64,000 nucleotides of DNA from assembly GCF_026914265.1 (NCBI RefSeq), contig NC_069135.1, positions 26,578,167 to 26,642,166 of the forward strand. Reading direction: 5' to 3'. This document shows, piece after piece, positions 26,005-60,515 of the stretch. A model generated the notes under the pieces. It saw nothing but the letters and a program-made list of their open reading frames with translations, made no database searches and was not told where the DNA came from. Numbering within the stretch: position 1 is the stretch's first letter; each line of letters begins with the position of its first letter. A program made the position numbers and the translations under genes. Source of the stretch: Mya arenaria. Lineage: Eukaryota; Mollusca; Bivalvia; Myida; Myidae.

Positions 26005-29000
26005 TTACCCTCTCTTGAATTCCCTGTTAAAAGTTGCTAACACCTTGTAACGCATATCGCGAACATTTCTGTCTAGATGCTGAAGTATAGAGGCGTAATT
26101 CTTTATCCAAATATGCCATAGTTTCCTGTTAATATTTTCATCATCACTTGATCCGAAGTTGCTACCTTCTGCATAGCCCTGTGAAAAGATGTAAAAATTA
26201 AATCTGACTGTTTGGTCAAAAGCACACACAACTAGCCGATCACAAAATGCAGCAAAACAAATTAAACGAAACACAGAAGCGTGGATATCTTTCCACATCC
26301 TTTTACACCAGCAAGCGTTCGTTGCATCGTATTATTCAAGCAATTATTAAAATGAATGGTGTTCAAATGTGGCTAGTTTTTACAAAAATTTTTTAATCAA
26401 AATGTGTTTCATTAACCCGACAATTATCCTTAAAAAAATAACCGTTTTAAACGAAACAAAAAATCTTAAATACGCATGGAATGAAATTGAAAAGTAATTA
26501 AGTTGCAATAACGTCTATTCTGTCAATTATCATACAGAAACTAGTTTAACTGACAATGAAGTGACGTTTATGAGTTTCAAATTTGCTTTACATCATTAGC
26601 TACTAACCTCTGATTCATTTTCATATTCGCCTCTATTTTTTAGCAGTTGGTTCGATATAGATCCGTATAAGGCGTTAACATCTTTGTGAACTTCGTACCG
26701 AATATTTCGTTGGCTCTTTCGCATTGCATTTGCAATGTCATTGAACAGTCTTTGAATTGAGTCTGGAATGTCAAGGCTAATGGTGTATGGTTAATTATGT
26801 GAAGTCGACACGTTTGCTTTATGTATCCAAACAGACCACTTCGTTCAGATCAATGGTAACATACAGACATAATTTGTCCAAAGTTTATTTATATTTTGCC
26901 TAAGCTCTTGGAAAATTACAAAATTAAATTATCAGAAATGTTTGCATACCCTCTTTGAAACTTTATATGTGAATATATTTATGAATATTGAGTACCTACC
27001 TTTTCCTACTCCGTCCGTAGAGCTGATACTTTTGTTTGTAGAAGGTGTTACAGGATTAGGTCTTAATGAGTTCTGTGCCGCAAACGTGGAACATCCAGCT
27101 TGCTTGGTTGGGCAGACGCAAGGTTCCTTTTCCCGAATAGTAACTTCGTTTTCTGGATGCCTCACTGTTGTTACCATCCTATCTGTTGTTTCATCGTATT
27201 TAGCCTCAGGATTTAATAACTCAGTAGTTGTATTTGGCAGAGGGGGGATATCCGTTTCTGGATTAACTTTGTTTGTCTCGTCGAATGTAGAGGTGGAATT
27301 CCTTGTTCCTGGATTCAAACTTTCCGTGCTTTGTGGAGTGGATGTTCTTAGATCAGAAGATGTCTCATCACTAAAGGCTGTGAAATATGTTGTTGCATTG
27401 GTTGCATCATTGTGTGGACTGAAAGAGGAAGTAGTTGGCGTACCTTGAAAATCAGAAAGCGTTGGTTCACTCGCATTTGGGTTGGTAAGCAATAGTTGTG
27501 TTGAAAGTAAGATTTGAACTGGAGTTGATACTGAGCTTGACTCTCGTTGATTGTAAGGTGTTGTTGTTACTTCATCCAAAAGACTTTCTATAGGAGGAAC
27601 ATATGGGGTCGGGCCGTTCAAACAAGTCAAACAACACTTGCTGCTAACATAGGTATTACCTCCAGTTATACATTCATCGATTCGGCAGGCCGGTGATCTA
27701 TCGCCGAACTCACAACCTGTTAAATTCATCGCAATTGTCTCACAAGCTTTGCAACACGTATACCGAACCGTTTCGTTGTAACAAACAGAGACATCTTCAC
27801 GGACAAGTTGATTGCATTCAACCAACGGATCGTTCCCGAAAGCGCATGTATCAGATGTTTCCTTAGCATCTTCAAACTCGTCGCAGTTACCTTGAAAGCA
27901 ATATTTCTTATTTCCACAGGTGGTTCCATCCGCAGGTAATATGAATTCGCATGCGTCCGATTCAGGAAGTGAGCATAGCAAACCAGAGCAGATCGTTGAA
28001 TATCCAGTTCCTATTCGAACTCTACAAACATCCGACAGTGGTCCGAGTCTTTGCTGGCATTGCCTTTTGGCGCTATAAACGAATCCTTGAAGCTGCCTTT
28101 GAACATGGTTATTTCCCTGCAGTAGAGTATCATTCAAACAATTTAAGCCATTCGTATTAAGTTCATTAACATATTCGTTTATGTATTGTTGGGAGCATGT
28201 TGAAAATTTCCACCTGTTTGACGCGAATGACCGTAGTGGTAATTTGAATTTTGGTGCCATGATATAATTAAAGAACTCCAAACAGTCATTATTATCCATA
28301 TCATCTCTAGACCCAAGGCTCCGCGCAATTTGTTGGGTGGCAAAGGTTACTGTTCTATAGTCAAACAAATCTTCAACAATACTCGAATTTGAAATGTTCA
28401 AGCACATTGAAGATCCAAAAGCAAGCCCCGTGTTTCCAGCACTTCCAGCGTAAGAGAGATTTGTCCCAGTAAATAAAATTGCATGATCATAATGTGGAAT
28501 ATTCTCAGTAGTCGTGTCTAGCCAGATCTGGAATTTTTCCAATGCTTCAGACGCATTTACCATAACTCTCGGACTTCTACTATCAACCTCTAAAATGCTA
28601 CTTAAAGTCCAAAACGATTCATTCTCTGTCTTTGCAATGTGTATTCCAGATAATACAACGCTAATTGTCAAGGTATTGTCAATGTTCTGAAGTCTGTCAT
28701 TCATTCCTTTGAAGATGAAATCATAATGTTCTTTGATAAGTGCATCTGTTTTTGCATAACCCCCTCCCATATTGTTTGCCAAATTGTCCCACCATTTATA
28801 TGCAGAGTAGTCTACGACGATCAGAAGTTCCACTGTAAGAACTGACGTTTCGCGTTTGTTTCTGTCATTTGAACGTTTCAATCGCACATAATACTCGTCA
28901 GTTTCGCTATCAGAGCTCTGTTCACGTTCAGATTCCTCAAGTTGACCACAGTGAGACTGAGACGACAAAGCCATGATATTAACGTCTGTGCGAGGTGGCT

Positions 29001-29644
29001 TCGCTGGTGTAATTATATAGTTTCTTCTCCCAAGGCATAGGTTGCCATAGACATTAAAGTTCCTCTTGTTTACTTTTAAAACATTAAGGTGGTGTTTTCT
29101 GTCGTCTGATCGAAATACTTTGTTTGGAAATTTAGTTTTGCTGAATTCAAAATACTCGCTGTCGTCTTCTTTTCCATGGAACAACTTTGCCCTTCCACCA
29201 TTTGTTTTTCTCCCTGAATGAAGGTCGTGCATATGGAAATTTATTGAAATTAAGTCTTTGCCCTTTTTATCCGATGCAAATCTCAAATGTAGCATGGAGG
29301 GAAAGTCATAAATTTCTTTATTGTCGTCTTCATAACCGTATCTTATTTCAGCTGTTGTCTTAAACTCAAATTCTGTTGTTTCTTCTACTGTTTCTGAAGC
29401 TTTAAGTTAAATGCAAAATATAAATAAGATTACACTTTATTATATATATATATATATATTATATATTGATAATAGCACTTGAATATCATACGCTTTTCGC
29501 TCTCTAAAATAATAATACAATCAACAATTTAATTGCAATTAAACAACGGAATTACTTACACTGATTCGGTACCTCTAAATGAATAATATAACAGGTCACT
29601 TTTACCAAAGTCAACCAAATGAGAAACACCATTCTCCACAACAT
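26005..29644 (-). CDS. secreted ADAMTS-like pseudoprotease with mucin stalk and helical tail
   Basis: Four exons in phase (minus strand): 29644-29560, 29399-27000, 26762-26608 and 26178-26005, giving 937 residues. Residues 1-20 are a signal peptide. A propeptide follows, ending at a furin-type RNKR (208-211). The M12B (reprolysin) domain begins at VELLIVVDYSAYKWW. Its zinc site, normally HExxHxxGxxHD, reads QQIARSLGSRDD (384-395): both helix histidines are Q and R, the third is D, and the catalytic Glu is Q. The Met-turn YIMAP (about 407-411) remains. So the fold is probably kept and catalysis lost. An ADAMTS-type cysteine-rich module follows (about 476-534, with ILPADGTTCG), then two small Cys-rich repeats (about 547-581, 591-621, each with CC..C), a Ser/Thr/Pro stalk (about 624-828), and two exons of charged helix (829-937). 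No transmembrane segment was seen. A role as inhibitor, decoy or scaffold is inference. Splicing of the last two exons rests on phase and sites only. Confidence 0.85.
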
Positions 29645-38527: not shown

Positions 38528-41500
38528 TATTTGAATGCATTATTTAACATGATGCGTTCTAAATTCCTTCGCTAAACCTGGTGCGCTTTTGGCTTCTCTT
38601 TGAATGTATGTTTTTACCTGATGAGTGATTTGAATGCATGTTTTAACTTGATGCGCTTTATTTGACTTGTCTTTGAATGCATGTTTTAACCTGATGCGCT
38701 GTATTTGACTTGTCTTGGAATGCATGTTTTAACCTGATGCGCTTTTTTTGACTTGTCTTTAAATGCATGTTTTAACCTGATGCGCTTATTTGACTTGTCT
38801 CTGAATGCATGTTTTAACCTGATGCGCTGTATTTGACTTGTCTTGGAATGCATGTTTTAACCTGATGCGCTGTATTTGACTTGTCTTGGAATGCATGTTT
38901 TAACCTGATGCGCTGTATTTGACTTGTCTTGGAATGCATGTTTTAACCTGATGCACTGTATTTGACTTCTCTTAAAATGCATGTTTTAACCTGATGCGCT
39001 TTATTTGACTTGTCTCTGAATGCATGTTTTAACCTGATGCGCTTTATTTGACTTGTCTCTGAATGCATGTTTAAACATGAGGCGCTTTTTTTTTTACTTG
39101 TCTCTGAATGCATGTTTTAACATGATGCGCTTTATTTGACTTGTCTCTGAATGCATGTTTAAACATGAGGCGGTTTTTTTTACTTGTCTCTAAATGCATG
39201 TTTTAACCTGATGCGCTTTATTTGACTTGTCTTTTAATGCATGTTTTTACCTAATGTACTTTATTTGACTTGTCTTTAAATGTATGTTTTAAACTGATGT
39301 ACTTTATTTGACTTGTCTCTGAATGCATGTTTTAACTTGATGTACTTTATTTGACTTGTCTCTGAATGCATGTTTTAACCTGATGCACTTTATTTGACTT
39401 GTCTTGGAATGCATGTTTTAACCTGATGCACTTTATTTGACTTGTCTCTGAATGCATGTTTAAACATGAGGCGCTTTTTTTTACTTGTCTCTGAATGCAT
39501 GTTTTAACATGATGCGCTTTATTTGACTTGTCTTTTAATGCATGTTTTTACCTGATGCGCTTATTTGACTCGTCTTTTAACGCATGTTTTAACCTGATGC
39601 GCTTATTTGACTTGTCTCTGAATGCATGTTTTAACCTGATGCGCTTATTTGACTTGTCTCTGAATGCATGTTTTTACCTGATGCGCTTATTTGACTTGTC
39701 TCTGAATGCATGTTTTTACCTGATGCGCTTATTTGACTTGTCTCTGAATGCATGTTTTAACCTGATGCGCTTATTTGACTTGTCTCTGAATGCATGTTTT
39801 TACCTGATGCGCTTATTTGACTTGTCTCTGAATGCATGTTTTTACCTGATGCGCTTATTTGACTTGTCTTGGAATGCATGTTTTAACCTGATGCACTTTA
39901 TTTGACTTGTCTCTGAATGCATGTTTAAACATGAGGCGCTTTTTTTTTACTTGTCTCTGAATGCATGTTTTAACATGATGCGCTTTATTTGACTTGTCTT
40001 TTAATGCATGTTTTTACCTGATGCGCTTATTTGACTCGTCTTTTAACGCATGTTTTAACCTGATGCGCTTATTTGACTTTCTCTGAATGCATGTTTTAAC
40101 CTGATGCGCTTATTTGACTTGTCTCTGAATGCATGTTTTTACCTGATGCGCTTATTTGACTTGTCTCTGAATGCATGTTTTTACCTGATGCGCTTATTTG
40201 ACTTGTCTCTGAATGCATGTTTTTACCTGATGCGCTGTATTTGACTTGTCTTGGAATGCATGTTTTAACCTGATGCGCTGTATTTGACTTGTCTTGGAAT
40301 GCATGTTTTAACCTGATGCGCTTTATTTGATTTTTTTTTAAATGCATGTTCTTACCTGGTGCACTGTATTTGACTTTTCTTTGAATACATGTTTTAACCT
40401 GATGCACTGTTTTTGACTTGTCTTGGAATGCATGTTTTAACCTGATGCGCTTTATTTGACTTGTCTCTGAATGCATGTTTAAACATGAGGCGCTTTTTTT
40501 ACTTGTCTCTGAATGCATGTTTTAACCTGATGCACTTTATTTGACTTGTCTTTAAATGTATGTTTTAAACTGATGTACTTTATTTGACTTGTCTCTGAAT
40601 GCATGTTTTAGCTGATGCTCTTTATTTGACTTGTCTTTTAACGCATGTTTTAGCCGGTGCACTTTATTTGACTTGTCTTTTAATGCATGTTTTAACCTGA
40701 TGCGCTTATTTGACTTGTCTTTAAATGCAAGTTTTAACCTGATGCACTTCATTTGACTTGTCTTTTAACGCATGTTGTAACCTGATGCGCTTTATTTGAC
40801 TTGTCTTTTAATGCATGTTTTAACCTGATGCGCTTATTTGACTTGTCTTTAAATGCATGTTTTAACCTGATGCACTTTATTTGACTTGTCTTTTAATGCA
40901 TGTTTTAACCTGATGTACTTTATTTGACTTGTCTCTGAATGCATGTTTAAACCTGATGCGCTTTATTTGACTTGTCTTTTAATGCATGTTTTAACCTGAT
41001 GTACTTTATTTGACTTGTCTCTGAATGCATGTTTAAACCTGATGCGCTTTATTTGACTTGTCTTTTAATGCATGTTTTAACCTGATGCGCTTATTTGACT
41101 TGTTTAAATGCATGTTTAAACCTGATGCTCTTTATTTGACTTGTCTTTTAACGCATGTTTTAGTTGGTGCACTTTATTTGACTTGTCTCTGAATGCATGT
41201 TTTAACCTGATGCGCTTTATTTGACTCGTCTTTTAACGCATGTTTTAGCTGATGCACTTTATTTGACTTGTCTTTTAACGCATGTTTTAACCTGAGCTCT
41301 TTATTTGACTTGTCTTTTAACGCATGTTTTAGCTGCTGATGCTCTTTATTTGACTCGTCTTTTAACGCATGTTTTAGCTGATGCACTTTATTTGACTTGT
41401 CTTTTAACGCATGTTTTAACCTGAGCTCTTTATTTGACTTGTCTTTTAACGCATGTTTTAGCTGATGCTCTTTATTTGACTTGTCTTTCAACGCATGTTT

Positions 41501-44273
41501 TAACCTGATGCGCTTTATTTGACTTGTCTTTTAACGCATGTTTTAGCTGGTGCACTTTATTTGACTCGTCTTTTAACGCATGTTTTAACCTGATGCGCCT
41601 TATTTGACTTGTCTTTTAACGCATGTTTTAGCTGGTGCACTTTATTTGACTTGTCTTTTAACGCATGTTTTAACCTGATGCGCTTTATTTGACTTGTCTT
41701 TTAACGCATGTTTTAGCTGGTGCACTTTATTTGACTCGTCTTTTAACGCATGTTTTAGCCTGATGCGCTTTATTTGACTTGTCTTTTAACGCATGTTTTA
41801 GCTGATGCTCTTTATTTGACTCGTCTTTTAACGCATGTTTTACCTGATGCACTTTATTTGACTTGTCTTTTAACGCATGTTTTAACCTGATGCGCTTTAT
41901 TTGACTTGTCTTTTAACGCATGTTTTAGCTGATGCTCTTTATTTGACTCGTCTTTTAACGCATGTTTTACCTGATGCACTTTATTTGACTTGTCTTTTAA
42001 CGCATGTTTTAGCTGGTGCACTTTATTTGACTTGTCTTTTAACGCATGTTTTAGCTGATGCTCTTTATTTGACTTGTCTTTTAACGCATGTTTTAGCTGG
42101 TGCACTTTATTTGACTTGTCTCTGAATGCATGTTTTAACCTGATGCGCTTTATTTGACCCGTCTTTTAACACATGTTTTAGCTGATGCTCTTTATTTGAC
42201 TTGTCTTTTAACGCATGTTTTAACCTGATGCTCTTTATTTGACTTGTCTTTTAACGCATGTTTTAGCTGGTGCACTTTATTTGACTTGTCTTTTAACGCA
42301 TGTTTTAGCTGATGCTCTTTATTTGACTTGTCTTTTAACGCATGTTTTAGCTGATGCTCTTTATTTGACTTGTCTTTTAACGCATGTTTTAACCTGATGC
42401 GCTTTATTTGACTCGTCTTTTAACACATGTTTTAGCTGATGCTCTTTATTTGACTTGTCTTTTAACGCATGTTTTAGCTGGTGCACTTTATTTGACTCGT
42501 CTTTTAACACATGTTTTAACCTGATGCGCTTTATTTGACTCGTCTTTTAACGCATGTTTTAGCTGGTGCACTTTATTTGACTCGTCTTTTAACGCATGTT
42601 TTAACCTGATGCGCTTTATTTGACTTGTCTTTTAACGCATGTTTTAGCTGATGCTCTTTATTTGACTTGTCTTTTAACGCATGTTTTAGCCGGTGCACTT
42701 TATTTGACTTGTCTTTTAACGCATGTTTTAACGCATGTTTTAGCTGATGCACTTTATTTGACTCGTCTTTTAACGCATGTTTTAGCTGGTGCACTTTATT
42801 TGACTCGTCTTTTAACGCATGTTTTAGCTGGTGCACTTTATTTGACTCGTCTTTTAACGCATGTTTTAGCTGGTGCACTTTATTTGACTCGTCTTTTAAC
42901 GCATGTTTTAGCTGGTGCGCTTTATTTGACTCGTCTTTTAACGCATGTTTTAGCTGGTGCACTTTATTTGACTTGTCTTTTAACGCATGTTTTAGCTGAT
43001 GCTCTTTATTTGACTTGTCTTTAAATGCATGTTCTTACCTGGTGCACTTTACTTGACTTGTCTTTTAATGCATGTTTTAACCTGATGCGCTTTATTTGAC
43101 TCGTCTTTTAACGCATGTTTTAGCTGGTGCACTTTATTTGACTCGTCTTTTAACGCATGTTTTAGCTGGTGCACTTTATTTGACTTGTCTTTTAACGCAT
43201 GTTTTAGCTGGTGCGCTTTATTTGACTTGTCTTTTAACGCATGTTTTAGCTGGTGCACTTTATTTGACTTGTCTTTTAATGCATGTTTTAGCTGGTGCAC
43301 TTTATTTGACTTGTCTTTTAACGCATGTTTTAGCTGGTGCACTTTATTTGACTTGTCTTTTAACGCATGTTTTAGCTGGTGCACTTTATTTGACTTGTCT
43401 TTTAACGCATGTTTTAACCTGATGCTCTTTATTTGACTTGTCTTTTAACGCATGTTTTAACCTGATGCTCTTTATTTGACTTGTCTTTTAACGCATGTTT
43501 AAGCTGGTTCACTTTATTTGACTTGTCTTTTAACGCATGTTTTAGCTGATGCTCTTTATTTGACTTGTCTTTTAACGCATGTTTTAGCTGGTGCACTTTA
43601 TTTGACTCGTCTTTTAACGCATGTTTTAGCTGGTGCACTTTATTTGACTCGTCTTTTAACGCATGTTTTAGCTGGTGCACTTTATTTGACTTGTTTTTTA
43701 ACACATGTTTTAGCTGATGCTCTTTATTTGACTCGTCTTTTAACGCATGTTTTAGCTGGTGCACTTTATTTGACTTGTCTTTTAACGCATGTTTTAGCTG
43801 GTGCACTTTATTTGACTCGTCTTTTAACGCATGTTTTAGCTGGTGCACTTTATTTGACTTGTCTTTTAACGCATGTTTTAGCTGGTGCACTTTATTTGAC
43901 TTGTCTTTTAACGCATGTTTTAGCTGGTGCACTTTATTTGACTCGTCTTTTAACACATGTTTTAGCTGGTGCACTTTATTTGACTCGTCTTTTAACGCAT
44001 GTTTTAGCTGATGCTCTTTATTTGACTTGTCTTTAAATGCATGTTCTTACCTGGTGCACTTTATTTGACTTGTCTTTTAATGCATGTTTTAACCTGATGC
44101 GCTTTATTTGACTTCTTTTTGGATGCATGTTTTTAACTGATGCACTTTTTTCTTTGAACGTATGGTTTAACCTGATGCTCTTTTTTTGAATGTATGTTAA
44201 ACCTCATGCGCTTTTTTCTTTGAATGTATGTGTTAACCTGGCGCGCTTTTTTCTTTGAATGTATGTTTTAACC
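38528..44273. repeat. 5.7-kb minisatellite, 42-bp unit, about 135 copies
   Basis: The unit is about 42 bp: TTTGACTTGTCTTTTAACGC then ATGTTTTAGCTGGTGCACTTTA. Variation is ordered. The left side is mostly TCTGAATGCATG..AACCTGATGCGC (41-42 bp); the right side is mostly TTTTAACGCATG..AGCTGGTGCAC. ACTTGTC/ACTCGTC and GATGCTC/GGTGCAC variants mix through it. Variants such as TAAACATGAGGCGC mark higher-order blocks (one at 39461, repeated at 39926, offset 465 bp). As 42 is 14 codons, stop-free frames run on both strands (up to 181 codons minus, HQLKHALKDKSNKV repeats; 172 plus, LTHVLAGALYLTCL repeats). These are by-products: they start and stop at random variants and have no splice context. Confidence 0.95.
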
Positions 44274-45648: not shown

Positions 45649-48600
45649 TTAAACGGTTGAAACCATTGCATCATTAATAGCCGCATAAATCCCCTTTAGA
45701 TATTTCATGACAGCTTCACTATCCTTTATAACAACATAAGCACGCAGGGTTTCGTTCGTAATGTTTTCTCCAGTGCTTTTAAAGGCTTGGGAAACTTCAA
45801 ATACCGTGGTCACATTGGAGGTATCTTCCCTCATTCCCAACAGCGCTATTTTTATATCACAAAGAATTCTATAAATTTCAATTTCTAGTTCCTCAAGCCG
45901 CATTTTCAAACTTCCCTCTTGTGTTTGCTTGCTTATCTCATTATGTGTTCGTATGTATTCCACGTGTGTCACGAGTTTAAATAACAATGAGTAATGTTCC
46001 TTCAGTGCGGTTGCAGGCTGAAAAAAAAGACAAAAGACATTAAAATCTTGCGAAAATATTACCACAAGAAATGAAATTAAAGCTGCACTCTCACAGATTG
46101 ATTGTTTTGGCAAATTGTTTTTGTCTTGAAAAGAGCCAGTTTTTGCGTAAATGTATTGAAACCAGTGATATAAAACTGCTGACAAAAGGGCAGAGAGCAG
46201 TTTTCATAATGAGCTGATTCTGAGACAAAAAAAAAACAACTAGAAAGGTCAAAACTGTCAATGTGTGAGAGTGCAGCTTTAAATTACTTTAAACCCAACC
46301 CTAAGGGAAGAAAATAGTCAAAGAATATATGGTTACTACGACGGTATCTAAAAAATTCAGCTTGAAACCCAGATTACAGTATTACGAAAGACGGTTTCCA
46401 AAACGAAGATGTTGCAACATTCTAAACTTGTGATACTCATGCACTTAATAGCTTTGAGCGTTTTTGATGTATACGCAATTTTACAACAACAGCGAGTATT
46501 TATAGTTTCTTCACTTGATTTAGACTGCAACGGTTTTCGAATGAATTTTAAACGTTGGTTTATTTTAACAAATCATTTAAAAGGGTGTGTAAAGTGTTGA
46601 TTAAACTTACGTTCTGAACTGCAGCTATTTTTGTCTGGTCGGTTAAAATCACGTCCTCCGAAGGTAAAAATGTATCATTTTCAACGTGTGAGGTCAGTGC
46701 TGCAGAACTAATGTATGTGTTTCTGACCTGAAAATAAAAACAATTAAAGTCATAAAATACTTCGGATATATTGTTTTGCATAGTGCATGTAAGGTATAAA
46801 GACATGTTGTGTTAATGCTGCAGAGCGTGTGTATATATTCGACATAAAATATTAATACATACTATCATAACGTCTTGGATTTAAATAATTACAATTTGAG
46901 CATATGGCGTGCGTTCCTATTTTCATTAAGTCATGAAAACGTGATATTCGTCAAAGGCGTGTTAAGAACGCTCAACGTATACTTTATACGCCCATCCATA
47001 CGGTTGTACGGTACGTCTAACTTAACTAAATCGTTCACTTTAATACATTCCTGAACCTTGTGAAGATCTCCCCATCTTTCCCACAAAAATTTAACAAGCT
47101 TGAAAAACGTAGGTCAGACGTAATATACGTAAACCTCCAATTAAACGACCTTGTGTAATCGGAATGCTCACTCGGACTCTTTTTTTTCCGATGTCAGCGA
47201 CAGCTATGACAATCAATGCACTAGGATTGGCGAGGTCATTGAGATAAAGGTAGAGGTTCAATAGTTTGGTCAAAAGGAAGTTAAGGTAAATTCTAATGTC
47301 CCTAAGATAGATTGTAAAACAATAGATAAAGCCATATTTAATTTTGATGTATGTACGGTATGATTGAGAGTCATACATTCCAGCATTGAGAATATTGAAG
47401 CAGGAAATGACATCTGATATTAAGACAGATGTGTAATAGTCCATTTTTTTCACATAACATTTTGTTGTATTTTTTCATTCAAATTACATGTGAAAAAAGA
47501 AGACGCGAACTTTGATGTTTAAAGTCTACTAACTCGGCTTGTTCTGATTGTCTTAAAAGACAAAATAAATCCTAGCACCCAGGATCGTTTTATCATCACT
47601 TCTTAATTGATGGATTTGAAGAGGAAATAAAGTTTTAAAAATGCATACCTGTCTTATTAATTGTTCTGAATATTAAGTAACAAATCACCAATAATAATAA
47701 TTGCCTTAATAGAGGAAGAACACTTGAATGGACTAGTAAAATTTATAATATATTATCAATTGAAATGGAAATGAATTTATCTACGGATGATTTATCATGT
47801 TCAATTTCTCTTTGCTAGTTTTTTTTCCATATGTCCAATGTAATTAGCAGTGACTGAGGAGTATACATATTACTCATCAGAGATGCGAGACATGGTTCCT
47901 TCGACTTAATTTAATAGCAAAAGTTCTGACAAAGAACAATATATTTACTCATGTTTAGTTCCTTATTGCAATTTTCAATTTAACTTTCATGTCATCACTT
48001 TGTTTAGTGTTGTTTTTTTAATTCAGGCCACAATATCAAGCCAAATCTTAATATAGATTTCAACTCATTTTACCGCTTAAAAGCAAAGTATGATTAAAAA
48101 TCTTGTACGTTTTATACTTTTTAAAACCATATATTCCATAGAATGTGTTGTTAAAAATGTATTGTCAATAATTGAATGAAAACGAATTCTTGAGCAAAAA
48201 TATACTTAAGAAATTGTAAAAAATACAATGAATTGTACTCAAGTCCATTACTTAATGTACAATATTTTCCCCTTGGAATCTACACCACAGGTTTTAATCA
48301 ACACTATTTTTTATAGAATGCTGTTTTAATAGTCGTCAAAACATATATTATTTTCAATATATTTTGATGGTTTGTGGTTAAATGAGTTGAGACTGAGTTT
48401 GCGACCTGAGTTGTGTATTTTCGTGATATTGAGTCTGGTCATCGGGCTTTTCCATGTACTTTAGATTACTTTCATAAAGACATTCGGAACACCTCGGCCA
48501 TTTTCCAACGAAAACAAGAAAACAACCCCGGATGTATATGGACGGTTTAAAATGACAGAAACCTTTATATTTAACTATGCTGCAAGGAGATAGCGTAGTA

Positions 48601-50214
48601 ATGTCAATTGAGCAGTAAACTGAATGACTTTACTCTTGGGATTCTTAATTAATTATGCAGTAATACACTTAACTGGCAATTAATTAAAACTTTGTTATAC
48701 AAATACACGTTAAACACTACAATTAATTAAAACTATTATTTAAAATTTTACAAACTACTTTATTCATGTACCGGCATACATGTGTATATCCGAAGTTGTA
48801 ATCGAAGAAAAATGACTGAGGTATTCAGAATGTCATACTGATTGTCAAATCACATAAACTAAGAACAATGCCGTTTGTGGTTACCTAAATATTGACTTTT
48901 TTAAGATAATATTATGTTTCCAAACAACTAGTTCAAATTCAGTGTGACACTTTTATTTTTATATAGGGAGATGGAGAAAATACCGTTATAAAAAAGCCTG
49001 GCCAATCTTAACATGCATCAATTGATACACTTGCAATGGTAAGCACATATTTATATCAAAAATGGTTCACTCTAGTTCCATCTTAATAAAAATATTAAAT
49101 CTAAATAAGCCAAAATATCACAGATAATGACAGTGGAACCCCACAAGTATTCACTTTCACTTACACATTAATCACACCGTTAGCAGTTACATTGCACCTC
49201 TGGTTACACGTTAACTAAGAAATATGTAAGCTAGTTTATCCCAGGAACACTTACATATTGTTTAATCTCCGCAGACGTAAGCCTGGCACCCTCTGCTCTT
49301 CTGACAAGGTCGCCAATGGCAGTTTGTATAGGTACATTAACTAGAGATTCCCCATTGTCATAAAGATTGCAGGGCCTTGAAATGTTGCCAGTAGATCGAG
49401 CTGGCCTGTTCCGAGGCATTGGTGCAGCTACTGTCGACGCCACAAGCGTTGTCATGATAATAAAGTAGGTTTTCCACCGGAAAAATGTCAGACAACCTGC
49501 AACAAAGAAAAGGAATTTAGAAAAAGACAGAAAAAAATCCGATAGAACTACTGCTGAATAATTAATTAATTAATACAGGGTTATGATAATCCAGTTTTGA
49601 TGAAATGATGAAACAGTCTCATTATGTAGAATACTCCATAAGTATCTTCGTAATAATTCATTTAGATTTGTAAATAATCCTTTCTCTTTTTCGGTTTTTA
49701 TTTTTTTAATGTGAGGCATATATATTAAGTAAAATATGTCAATACCTTTTGAGGAAATGCTAAGTAGAGTGAATATCAACTTTAAACAGTCAACGTCAAT
49801 AAACATAATGCATTGTATCAACATCCAATATGTTTAACTGAATCGAAGAACAGAGTAATATGTACTCGATGAAACAGATTTGTTCTGATTTATTTGTCTA
49901 ATACCCATTATTTATATGATATTGTGTATGGAACATCTGGGATTCCCGTTGGGTTTTCAACAATTTCACTGGCTATGATATATTTCAAAATAAATACACG
50001 TCCTAATGAGGCTTTCATCATATTGGTTATATATTTCCGCCAGTTATAAATAAAGTTAAAACTTGTAATCAAAGTATGAGAAGTATAGTCACAAGAGGTG
50101 ATTTTTTTGCAGATTTCGTTACGCATAAATAAAAAAAAAAAAAAAATATTACATATTCCGCGTTAACTTACTTTTAGGTAATATTTGAACAAGTATTTTA
50201 GCAAACGTTTTCAT
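45649..50214 (-). CDS. secreted four-helix cytokine-like protein (IL-6/CNTF-like candidate)
   Basis: Four exons in phase on the minus strand: 50214-50172, 49496-49255, 46727-46611 and 46017-45649, coding for 256 residues. All introns are GT-AG, phases 1, 0, 0. Start chosen: MKTFAKILVQILPK in exon 1; the hydrophobic stretch of exon 2 (about 24-39, ending STVAA) then forms a signal peptide. Met29 is a possible alternative start. The mature part has only Cys57 and Cys187, and likely N-glycosylation sites at 52, 202, 219 and 222. Four amphipathic segments can be read: about 68-105; LKEHYSLLFKLVTHVEYI (139-156); RLEELEIEIYRILCDIKIAL (174-193); and LRAYVVIKDSEAVMKYLKG (225-243). The long A-B and C-D loops, late helix D with a YVVI core, and tiny first exon with phase-1 then phase-0 introns match what I recall of IL-6/LIF/CNTF-type genes. 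Identity is too low to prove by eye. It could be an unrelated helical secreted protein. A family A MITE sits just upstream of exon 4. Confidence 0.7.
46080..46279. mobile_element. TA-flanked MITE, family A, short internal-deletion copy
   Basis: A 200-bp element flanked by TA (46078-46079, 46280-46281). Left end AAGCTGCACTCTCACAGATT; right end ATGTGTGAGAGTGCAGCTT. It shares TTGTCTTGAAAAGAGCCAGT with copy 2 but lacks the middle. It sits in the last intron of the cytokine-like gene, 62 bp from the final exon. Confidence 0.9.
46728..49254. other. intron 2 of the cytokine-like gene
   Basis: A 2.5-kb AT-rich intron. The 120-codon minus frame at 47091-47453 lies here. It has no splice sites in phase with the gene and no recognisable domain, so I treat it as chance. 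A family B MITE (48481-48832) is inserted. Confidence 0.6.
48481..48832. mobile_element. family B MITE, diverged full copy
   Basis: It starts CATTCGGAACACCTCGGCCA and ends with the inverted copy GAGGTATTCAGAATG. Flanks TCATAAAGA and TCATACTGA may be a decayed 9-bp target duplication. The body is in opposite orientation to the copy at 22313-22646. It lies in intron 2 of the cytokine-like gene. Confidence 0.8.
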
Positions 50215-57738: not shown

Positions 57739-60354
57739 CTAAAAGGTCCGAACATGACATAGCATACAGTTTTTGTGTTTTCTTTCCTTGACGTACGGCA
57801 ACAAAAATCTGGCCACCTCTGGGTAATGGATATCATTGTTCTCCTCTCCTTTGACGAGCAACTGAAGATTGTCAATGGCCTGTTGTCTGTGCACGGGACG
57901 ATGTATGCTGTTGTACGAGAGCGCCAAAAGGAAATAGGCATACACTATGGCATCTACAAATACGAAACCTGAAATTTGAAAGATTGTCCTCTATTTATCT
58001 AATGTTATGAAGTAGGAGATTATGAACACTTTTTATCCAATGTTCTACATTAACCACATTTTGGTCACCATAAATACTTTGTTAAAATATTGCTACACAT
58101 AAACGAACATTAAAAACAACATAAAATAATACTGTTAAGGGCTAGAAAATAAACCCAAAACAATACAACTGTGTCAATTTAGCTTTCAGTCAAATTTGTA
58201 TTTGTAAAACATTTTTCATTATAGATACGAGATCAAAGAATATTCATACTTTGAACTTCTTAAATATTAAGTTGCTCGACACACCGACATTCATAACAAA
58301 ACCATGCATTTTCTTCCTTTTTGATTGAATTTGTTAACAGCATCAATTGCGTAATGAAATTCATGTATCAGACATTATATACTCATACTATGTCTTGTAT
58401 TTCTCTCCGTTATTTACATACTGTAAATACTGTATGGAATTGTGTGGTTTTTTTATGAAAAAATAAATGTGTTATTAGTTTTGGAAATTCCAAAAAGAAA
58501 AAATTCGATACCTCTGTGATCGGTATCATCGTCTGTCATAGCTTCTCTGTCTTTCAGCATTTGTATGGCTTCAGGAGCAAACGGGACCTCCCATGGCCCG
58601 AATGTCAGTTCCAAAGCTGCCCATTCCATCATAGATGGCGCATTTCCAATCAATGATGTAACTGATCGATGTTTCCGCAAGGCTTTCTGCCGTTTGGACG
58701 ATTTCATTCTCCTTGTCTTATCACCCGTTGTGTTCACGATGTATTCGTTGAATTGTCTCAGCAGCTGCATAGTTATTTTGATTGTTTCATCATAGTTTTC
58801 TGTCATGTAATGAAACGTTGCAAGCTTCAGTTTGGTAGTCGCAGCGTCAACGCCGATTGCACCCTCAATGAATTTCTGTCCAGTAGGCAAAATCGTCTGT
58901 GAACCTCCCTTTCTGTTGTATGGATAACTTTTTGACAATCCCAAGTAGACAATTCCAAGATGACTCTTAATCATCAATTTCATTATGCCCGTTGTCGGTA
59001 CGTCTGGGAAGTGGACGGGGTCACGCATTGTCGGGTATTCAATAAACATCGTCATGGCGTCTATTGTCGATTGTAGGTCCTGTCTCTCCGTAAGACGAAG
59101 TATAACCCTTATTGCTGCATTGAAAAGGGTATAACATCTTTCTACCATGGAAACATTGCGCTCACATCCTTCGCTTCCCCAGTGAGTATCATAGCAGTCA
59201 CAACGCACTTGAATTTTGTGTCTTGCGAGAAGCATGTTCATGTTTGGCGGGAGGCATTGCAGTAAACATTGCCAACCTTTTTCGAGCTGGCCAGTGACGA
59301 TTGAGACCAATCTGATTCTTGAATCACCTTGAAGTTTTGGATGGAAGAGATTGTGGCTTGGTATGAAGTAATGTGGAAGAGTCCCGTCCTCTAAGCATTG
59401 CAAGAGCTTCTGCAGGCATCCAACAAAGCAAGAAGAAAGTTTGTCTTTGGTCCACTCTGTTGGATGTGTACTTTCCACCATATGAAGCATAACGGTTTTG
59501 ACATGATATGAGGATATGGTTTCAATAACTGCTGGGTTGATGACATATGTAACGAGCAACTTCAACAGGAAGAAACACTGTATCTGAGTGGTATTGAATG
59601 TGCGAATAAGCAGTTTCTCAGCAAGAGAGAAAGACCATCGCCATTCAAGATGTTTGTTGGGACTTTCCGAGTTGCCGTATGGAACAACGTGGCATCCGTG
59701 TTGCAGTATAAACTTTTTTAGTTCAACTGTCGGCCAAATGAAGCGCCTAACTCTAAATGCCCACTCTCTAGCGGCAATTGGCCAAACTGGCGAATGGACG
59801 CACAGGATTGGCTTCACACTGCTGCGAAGAACCCCAGAAACTCCTGGTGCACTTATGGTTCCGGTTCCATTTCGACTGTAAGAATCCATCAGTAATTTAG
59901 GGGCCAAAATCATCCTCCCCTGCTCATCAGCGACACAGCAACTTGGCGTCGACATGATTGATCTGCTAGAACTTGTTCCCATTAAAACGCATTGGAGTCG
60001 AACATACGAGGGATGATAGGTCTGAACAACTTTGAAAAGGTGGACGTCAGAAGAATGGGTATCAGATTGTCTTTGTGGTGCGATGCGCGTTCCAGAAAGT
60101 GTCATCATAACGTTGTAATCGGATCCCAGTTTTTCCAACCCGATTCCCTCGGCGTTACTCCCGACGTTTATAGCGTGGAACATGAAATCAACGTCAGACC
60201 CATAATTGGCTATCCCCTCAAGACTAAAGAGTGAATTGGTATAGTCGCTGAGCCAGTTTCTGTTCTTGATATCTTCTGCAGACACGCCCACTTCGCAGCA
60301 AAGCTCATAGAGATGGAATGAGTCTCGCTCTGTCTGTTCAATGCCGTTCCACAT
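57739..60354 (-). CDS. Mab-21 domain / cGAS-like receptor with altered active site
   Basis: Two exons in phase on the minus strand: 60354-58512 and 57968-57739, 690 residues. The start ATG at 60354 follows an in-frame TGA. The family signature is clear: GSNAEG (65-70) as the nucleotidyltransferase GS motif, HPSYVRLQ (114-121), SPVWPIAAREW (188-198), GCHVVPYG (220-227), LEWRWSFSLAEKLLIRTFN (236-254), and LLKLLVTYVINP. The C-terminal exon (FVDAIVYAYFLLALSYNS, RQQAIDNLQLLV) matches the helical tail of bivalve Mab-21 proteins. Active members use an acid pair and a third Asp. Here the pair reads D79-Y-N81, so the second acid is Asn, and the expected third Asp (before the VPCL-like block) aligns with Lys181. 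Catalysis is therefore doubtful. Related receptors sense nucleic acid and make cyclic dinucleotides for STING. The gene belongs to a family that is greatly expanded in bivalves. Confidence 0.9.
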
Positions 60355-60515
60355 GTTGCAATGCTTTTTGTGTCACTGCAATAGACAATGCATAGACAGC
60401 TAGTTAATAAATGCCATTAATCTACAGAAAAGGGGGGTATTTACTTGTTTTGTACCTTGTTCCATTGACACTAGATTGTATTAGCGAAACTTATAACCAA
60501 AAATGAGTGCACTAT

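Follow-up and report, generated by a model that had tools for sequence, protein, structure and literature searches.

A gene family of Mya arenaria with at least two loci and a predicted long-chain class I cytokine fold

Which ligands address the cytokine receptors of molluscs? According to PMC13203501 (2026), IL6R, JAK and STAT go back to Mollusca, and IL6 is not reported from invertebrates. The question is posed afresh by a gene on the minus strand of a 64,000-nucleotide stretch of the Mya arenaria genome (C14:26578167-26642166, contig NC_069135.1 of assembly GCF_026914265.1), here called the window. A first-pass annotation, made from the sequence alone, had proposed this gene as a candidate IL-6/CNTF-type cytokine. 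We consider it probable that its product is a secreted four-helix bundle, likely to be glycosylated, with the fold of the long-chain class I cytokines. The gene belongs to a family with at least two loci in Mya, and its product may act as a ligand in receptor/JAK-STAT signalling.

The fold evidence comes from a full-length paralog, P0005, which is tied to the window protein through homology. The structure model of P0005 consists of four long helices running up-up-down-down, with long AB and CD loops, and 170 of its residues could be matched to CNTF (VIA-align). When this model was compared with solved structures, 49 of the 50 rows listed were long-chain class I cytokines. CNTF came first (Z 17.2), and IL-11, G-CSF and prolactin scored 16.2, 15.6 and 15.5, respectively. 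Interferon ranked beneath 41 class I rows, and neither an unrelated helical bundle nor EPO was among the 50 rows listed; a family outside these rows may match as well. Four helices also emerge in the model available for the window protein itself via P0001, its NCBI counterpart, which is of low confidence (predicted local distance difference test, pLDDT, 49.6). The modelled fold of P0005, a paralog that lay outside the view of the first-pass annotation, supports its core inference, a long-chain helical cytokine in a mollusc. The narrower label, IL-6/CNTF-type, is not established, because the scores of CNTF, IL-11, G-CSF and prolactin span no more than 2 Z units and no cytokine was matched in Pfam or by the PDB profile. 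We class these genes as a new family, molluscan and with the fold of the long-chain class I cytokines, rather than placing them within IL-6, LIF or CNTF.

The homology that connects the window protein with P0005 was computed by profile-profile alignment. P0001 and P0002, a metagenomic relative described below, were aligned with seven proteins of a gene array on C12 to which P0005 belongs. The alignment covers 219 columns, nearly end to end, with a probability of 97.8 and an expectation value (E) of 6.6e-13. Against 87.2 for the real array profile, its reversed version reached 17.1, and the highest score among 40 column-shuffled profiles was 19.5. Conserved between the loci are a cysteine preceding helix A, in the motif PCN, and a second one in helix C.

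How well is the gene itself defined? Its coding sequence of 43 + 242 + 117 + 369 = 771 nucleotides yields 256 amino acids. The three introns all follow the GT-AG rule, and their phases are 1-0-0, just as the first-pass annotation had it. P0001 (LOC128218222 isoform X1), an "uncharacterized protein" of Mya arenaria, is 98% identical over 97% of the window protein. The NCBI model begins at another first exon (49824-49746); the two models therefore agree on exons 2-4 but not on exon 1. The first intron is in phase 1 whichever first exon is taken. The coding parts are:

50172..50214, minus strand: exon 1 as first read, predicted; 43 nucleotides ending in phase 1, coding for MKTFAKILVQILPK plus 1 nucleotide; canonical GTAAGT donor.
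49746..49824, minus strand: alternative coding exon 1 of NCBI LOC128218222 isoform X1; 79 nucleotides, phase 1, matched by the N-terminus of P0001; donor GTATTG.
49255..49496, minus strand: exon 2; 242 nucleotides with a phase-0 end, based on splice sites, P0001, the homologous C12 exon and the full-length profile alignment; it holds the remaining hydrophobic leader, the N-terminal segment with the conserved RPCNL cysteine, and most of helix A.
46611..46727, minus strand: exon 3; 117 nucleotides between two phase-0 introns, based on splice sites and a matching phase-0 exon in the C12 array; it encodes the final turn of helix A, followed by the AB loop.
45649..46017, minus strand: exon 4 with the stop codon; 369 nucleotides, based on its splice site and the C12 paralogs; helices B, C and D.

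A second, inverted copy of the gene lies at C14:27.12 Mb. Its four exons are letter-identical, the surrounding 8 kb 99.8% identical. The window appears to be part of a large inverted duplication with C14:27105560-27169559, about 0.5 Mb apart, be it a real duplication or an assembly artefact. Both ends of the window have inverted matches in short stretches at the mirrored positions, the left end at 96-99% and the right end, which is inside tandem repeats, at 92.5%.

The genome, 1.216 Gb in 18 contigs, contains further relatives. With the window protein as query, eleven weak matches (E 0.006 to 1) were obtained at C12:53.46-53.65 Mb, and the same region was matched by P0002 with E down to 1.5e-5. 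Matches to P0005 were confined to this array and the two C14 copies (E up to 1); as such searches score the best candidates only, more distant paralogs may exist. Across 240 kb of C12 there are 15 gene units, each with homologs of exons 3 and 4, and 14 of them also with exon 2. All 15 units have an AG acceptor before exon 3. In 14 of the 15, a GT donor stands 117 nucleotides into this exon (105 in four genes), and in 13 of the 15, exon 4 is open over 116-118 codons. A first exon of 13-16 nucleotides ending in phase 1 was found within 700 nucleotides upstream in 7 of 14 units by pattern matching, which may include chance matches; the N-termini of the NCBI models P0005, P0007 and P0008 fit such an exon. 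Several of the array genes, among them LOC128210786, LOC128211239, LOC128211240 and LOC128211243, are annotated as "uncharacterised" by NCBI.

Exons 2-4 could be extracted cleanly from 12 of the 15 array genes, giving 66 pairs, 63 of them with a synonymous divergence (dS) above 0.05. In these 63 pairs the ratio of nonsynonymous to synonymous divergence (dN/dS) had a median of 0.37 and never exceeded 1, which indicates purifying selection. This marks working genes rather than chance frames. Of the four in-phase exons first proposed, the last three are thus corroborated by the LOC128218222 model, the splice sites of the array and selection; the 43-nucleotide exon 1, where isoform X1 differs, is not. 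The family has at least two loci in Mya: C14, with two inverted copies, and the C12 tandem array of 15 units.

Not every part of the array looks intact. Unit g9 (C12:53560067-53561957) has in-frame stops, no exon 2 that could be found, and its GT at 123 nucleotides of exon 3; in unit g1 (C12:53452583-53454426) the exon-4 frame is interrupted. An additional copy of exon 2 is seen near C12:53527255. The annotated array protein P0010 (MAR_016164) ends in a second exon-2 copy instead of helix D and is probably an annotation fusion of two adjacent units.

Read by eye, both loci encode a hydrophobic leader, and that of the window protein closes near ...VASTVAA. Few cysteines and several N-glycosylation sites had been announced for the window protein, and the counts agree: there are three cysteines, of which Cys 16 falls in the presumed leader and Cys 57 and Cys 187 belong to the mature protein, and N-x-S/T sequons at five positions (52, 112, 202, 219 and 222). 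The leader and the helices, the latter as placed by the low-confidence model, map as follows:

49423..49496, minus strand: presumed signal peptide, part encoded by exon 2; ends ...VASTVAA, read from the sequence.
49255..49329 plus 46727-46716 in exon 3, minus strand: helix A, residues 71-99; helix 83-111 of the P0001 model in P0001 numbering, low confidence.
45946..46017, minus strand: helix B, residues 135-158, low confidence; counterpart 114-137 in the better paralog model.
45835..45915, minus strand: helix C, residues 169-195, low confidence, with the conserved Cys 187 in an invariant column; counterpart 147-176.
45658..45756, minus strand: helix D, residues 222-254, low confidence, with the core LRAYVVIKDSEAVMKYL; counterpart 199-227; sequons 219 and 222 are at the helix start.

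The introns can be placed relative to these helices. Intron 1 falls within the leader. Intron 2, in phase 0, lies 4 residues before the end of helix A (95|96 in the window protein, 74|75 in P0005), and intron 3, likewise in phase 0, lies at the first residue of helix B (134|135 and 113|114, respectively); in the low-confidence P0001 model, helix B begins at the first codon of exon 4. The coding exons of human IL-6 comprise 19, 191, 114, 147 and about 168 nucleotides, with intron phases 1-0-0-0. In this gene, intron 2 sits close to where helix A ends and intron 3 where helix B begins, and G-CSF, growth hormone (GH) and EPO follow the same scheme. Phases and positions in the Mya genes agree with this plan, but the final vertebrate intron, in helix C, is missing: IL-6 and G-CSF carry one intron more, whereas the last Mya exon encodes helices B-D undivided. 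Other differences are evident. To the gp130 family (CNTF, IL-11, LIF, OSM, IL-6) the Mya family shows no significant sequence similarity, and in Mya it forms a tandem array of 15 units. G-CSF, GH/prolactin, leptin and EPO gave no sequence match either, and GH and prolactin have C-terminal cysteine bridges that lack a counterpart in Mya. Among molluscs, the oyster protein CgIFNLP reportedly acts as an interferon-like cytokine (PMC8218723). Insects have the Unpaired proteins (Upd1-3), which PMC13203501 presents as invertebrate ligands of the gp130-like receptor Domeless.

Some results do not fit the cytokine reading or add nothing to it. No cytokine family emerged when six proteins were scanned against Pfam (E up to 10), and the PDB sequences gave no cytokine match to the single protein or to the family profile. 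Alignment by hhalign with eight human cytokine sequences was not significant. Its best match, IL-11 residues 73-120 with helix B and its loop, was collinear with the helices and equally not significant; as the IL-6 match was out of register, we give this comparison no weight. Neither Pfam nor the PDB profile search gave a significant match to a profile of IL-6, LIF or CNTF. The four amphipathic segments of the first-pass annotation gained no support from a shuffling test: the hydrophobic moments of the window protein's four modelled helices were reached by 500, 625, 810 and 898 of 2000 shuffled sequences. Searches of about 5.8 billion proteins returned only Mya proteins and P0002, with no ortholog from another named bivalve or any other named species; they require shared five-residue words, so that distant orthologs can be missed. 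In the three gp130-like genomic matches examined over short stretches, the WSxWS motif was not seen, which does not imply that the receptor is absent. Of little weight is the NCBIfam scan, which found no known family in a bacterial and archaeal library; a viral structure library produced nothing clear. Among the titles and abstract openings listed from an open-licence literature library, none describes a molluscan class I helical cytokine, and five LOC numbers of the family are absent from that library; nor did it yield a source for the exon scheme of class I genes.

P0002, the sole relative not labelled Mya, is a metagenomic protein (JGI contig of 4906 bases) with 63% identity over exon 4. 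Its first ~20 residues resemble intron sequence, and it probably represents genomic DNA of another bivalve.

What else could these genes be? A spurious gene, made of chance open frames joined by eye, might be suspected from the first exon, which is unlike that of NCBI; yet NCBI's own exons 2-4, the array-wide conservation of splice sites and the median dN/dS of 0.37 make this practically negligible. Convergence deserves more thought: a secreted protein with four helices but no cytokine function, e.g., an antimicrobial, lipid-binding, reproductive or shell-matrix protein specific to clams, might have arrived at a similar bundle. We regard this as unlikely, since 49 of the 50 structural rows listed were class I cytokines and none was an unrelated helical bundle. 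The phase-1 first intron fits class I genes too, as do the two phase-0 introns where helix A ends and helix B begins, so that convergence would need a second coincidence. A class II helical cytokine of the interferon/IL-10 type, in which a fifth helix replaces the CD crossover, is still less credible and would surprise us. Interferon stood below 41 class I rows among the 50 listed, and in fish, type I interferon genes carry four introns, all in phase 0 (PMC4929537). The 1-0-0 pattern of the window gene, obtained with either first exon, argues against this class; its first intron is in phase 1, as it is in the 7 array units where an exon 1 was seen, and so departs from the phase-0 plan of the fish genes.

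The long-chain class I reading can be extended. The Mya genes might be truly orthologous to the long-chain class I cytokines of vertebrates and have kept an ancestral arrangement of introns: one of phase 1 within the signal peptide, and two of phase 0, close to where helix A ends and where helix B starts. The clam array would then diversify them into immune ligands that act on the molluscan IL6R/Dome-JAK-STAT module. To this we concede slightly less than an even chance. Were it true, protostomes and deuterostomes would share an ancestor that already had a helical cytokine ligand.

Is there a pathway to receive such a ligand? A STAT domain is present on C5 of the Mya genome. The Pfam family IL6Ra-bind has a single match there, with E 0.65 below the family cut-off. 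A search with part of human gp130 gave 18 weak matches, the best with E 0.006; three of them, inspected by eye over short stretches, look like ordinary fibronectin-III domains. PMC8226699 (2021) has the gp130-type receptor appear first in molluscs in its text, but GP130 first in lampreys in a figure legend. Domeless can also be served by other ligands, e.g., a shrimp C-type lectin (PMC13203501).

Elsewhere in the window, a minisatellite (38629-44148) with ~130 copies of a 42-nucleotide unit is located ~1.5 kb from the cytokine-like gene, on its 3' side; several frames of the repeat are open, which creates long spurious open reading frames. On the minus strand, an open frame of 824 residues (26932-29406) matches Reprolysin (M12B) and the ADAMTS cysteine-rich domain 2. 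No HExxH zinc site of the usual kind stands out by eye, so the product may be an inactive ADAMTS-like protein. A frame of 639 residues (58453-60372, minus strand) matches the Mab-21 nucleotidyltransferase and C-terminal domains and possibly encodes a cGAS-like receptor.

Beyond what was computed here, i.e., gene structure, homology of the loci, selection, the fold of the paralog and the STAT domain, we infer a simple course of events. The protein would be exported through its signal peptide, presumably glycosylated, and fold into an up-up-down-down bundle, possibly with a single disulfide from the N-terminal PCN cysteine to helix C. It would then cross-link gp130/Dome-like cytokine receptors on haemocytes or other cells and activate JAK-STAT, and the C12 array could be a source of diversified ligands.

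Sequence searches such as BLAST with a minimum identity of 30% can miss fast-evolving helical cytokines. The Mya family, in which the class I fold and the class I gene plan come together, offers specific candidates: its proteins may be the missing ligands of the molluscan receptor pathway. If this is true, helical cytokines predate the protostome-deuterostome split, and the family would be a pointer for searches in other invertebrates. It would also bear on the biology of clam haemocytes, including the transmissible neoplasia of Mya arenaria.
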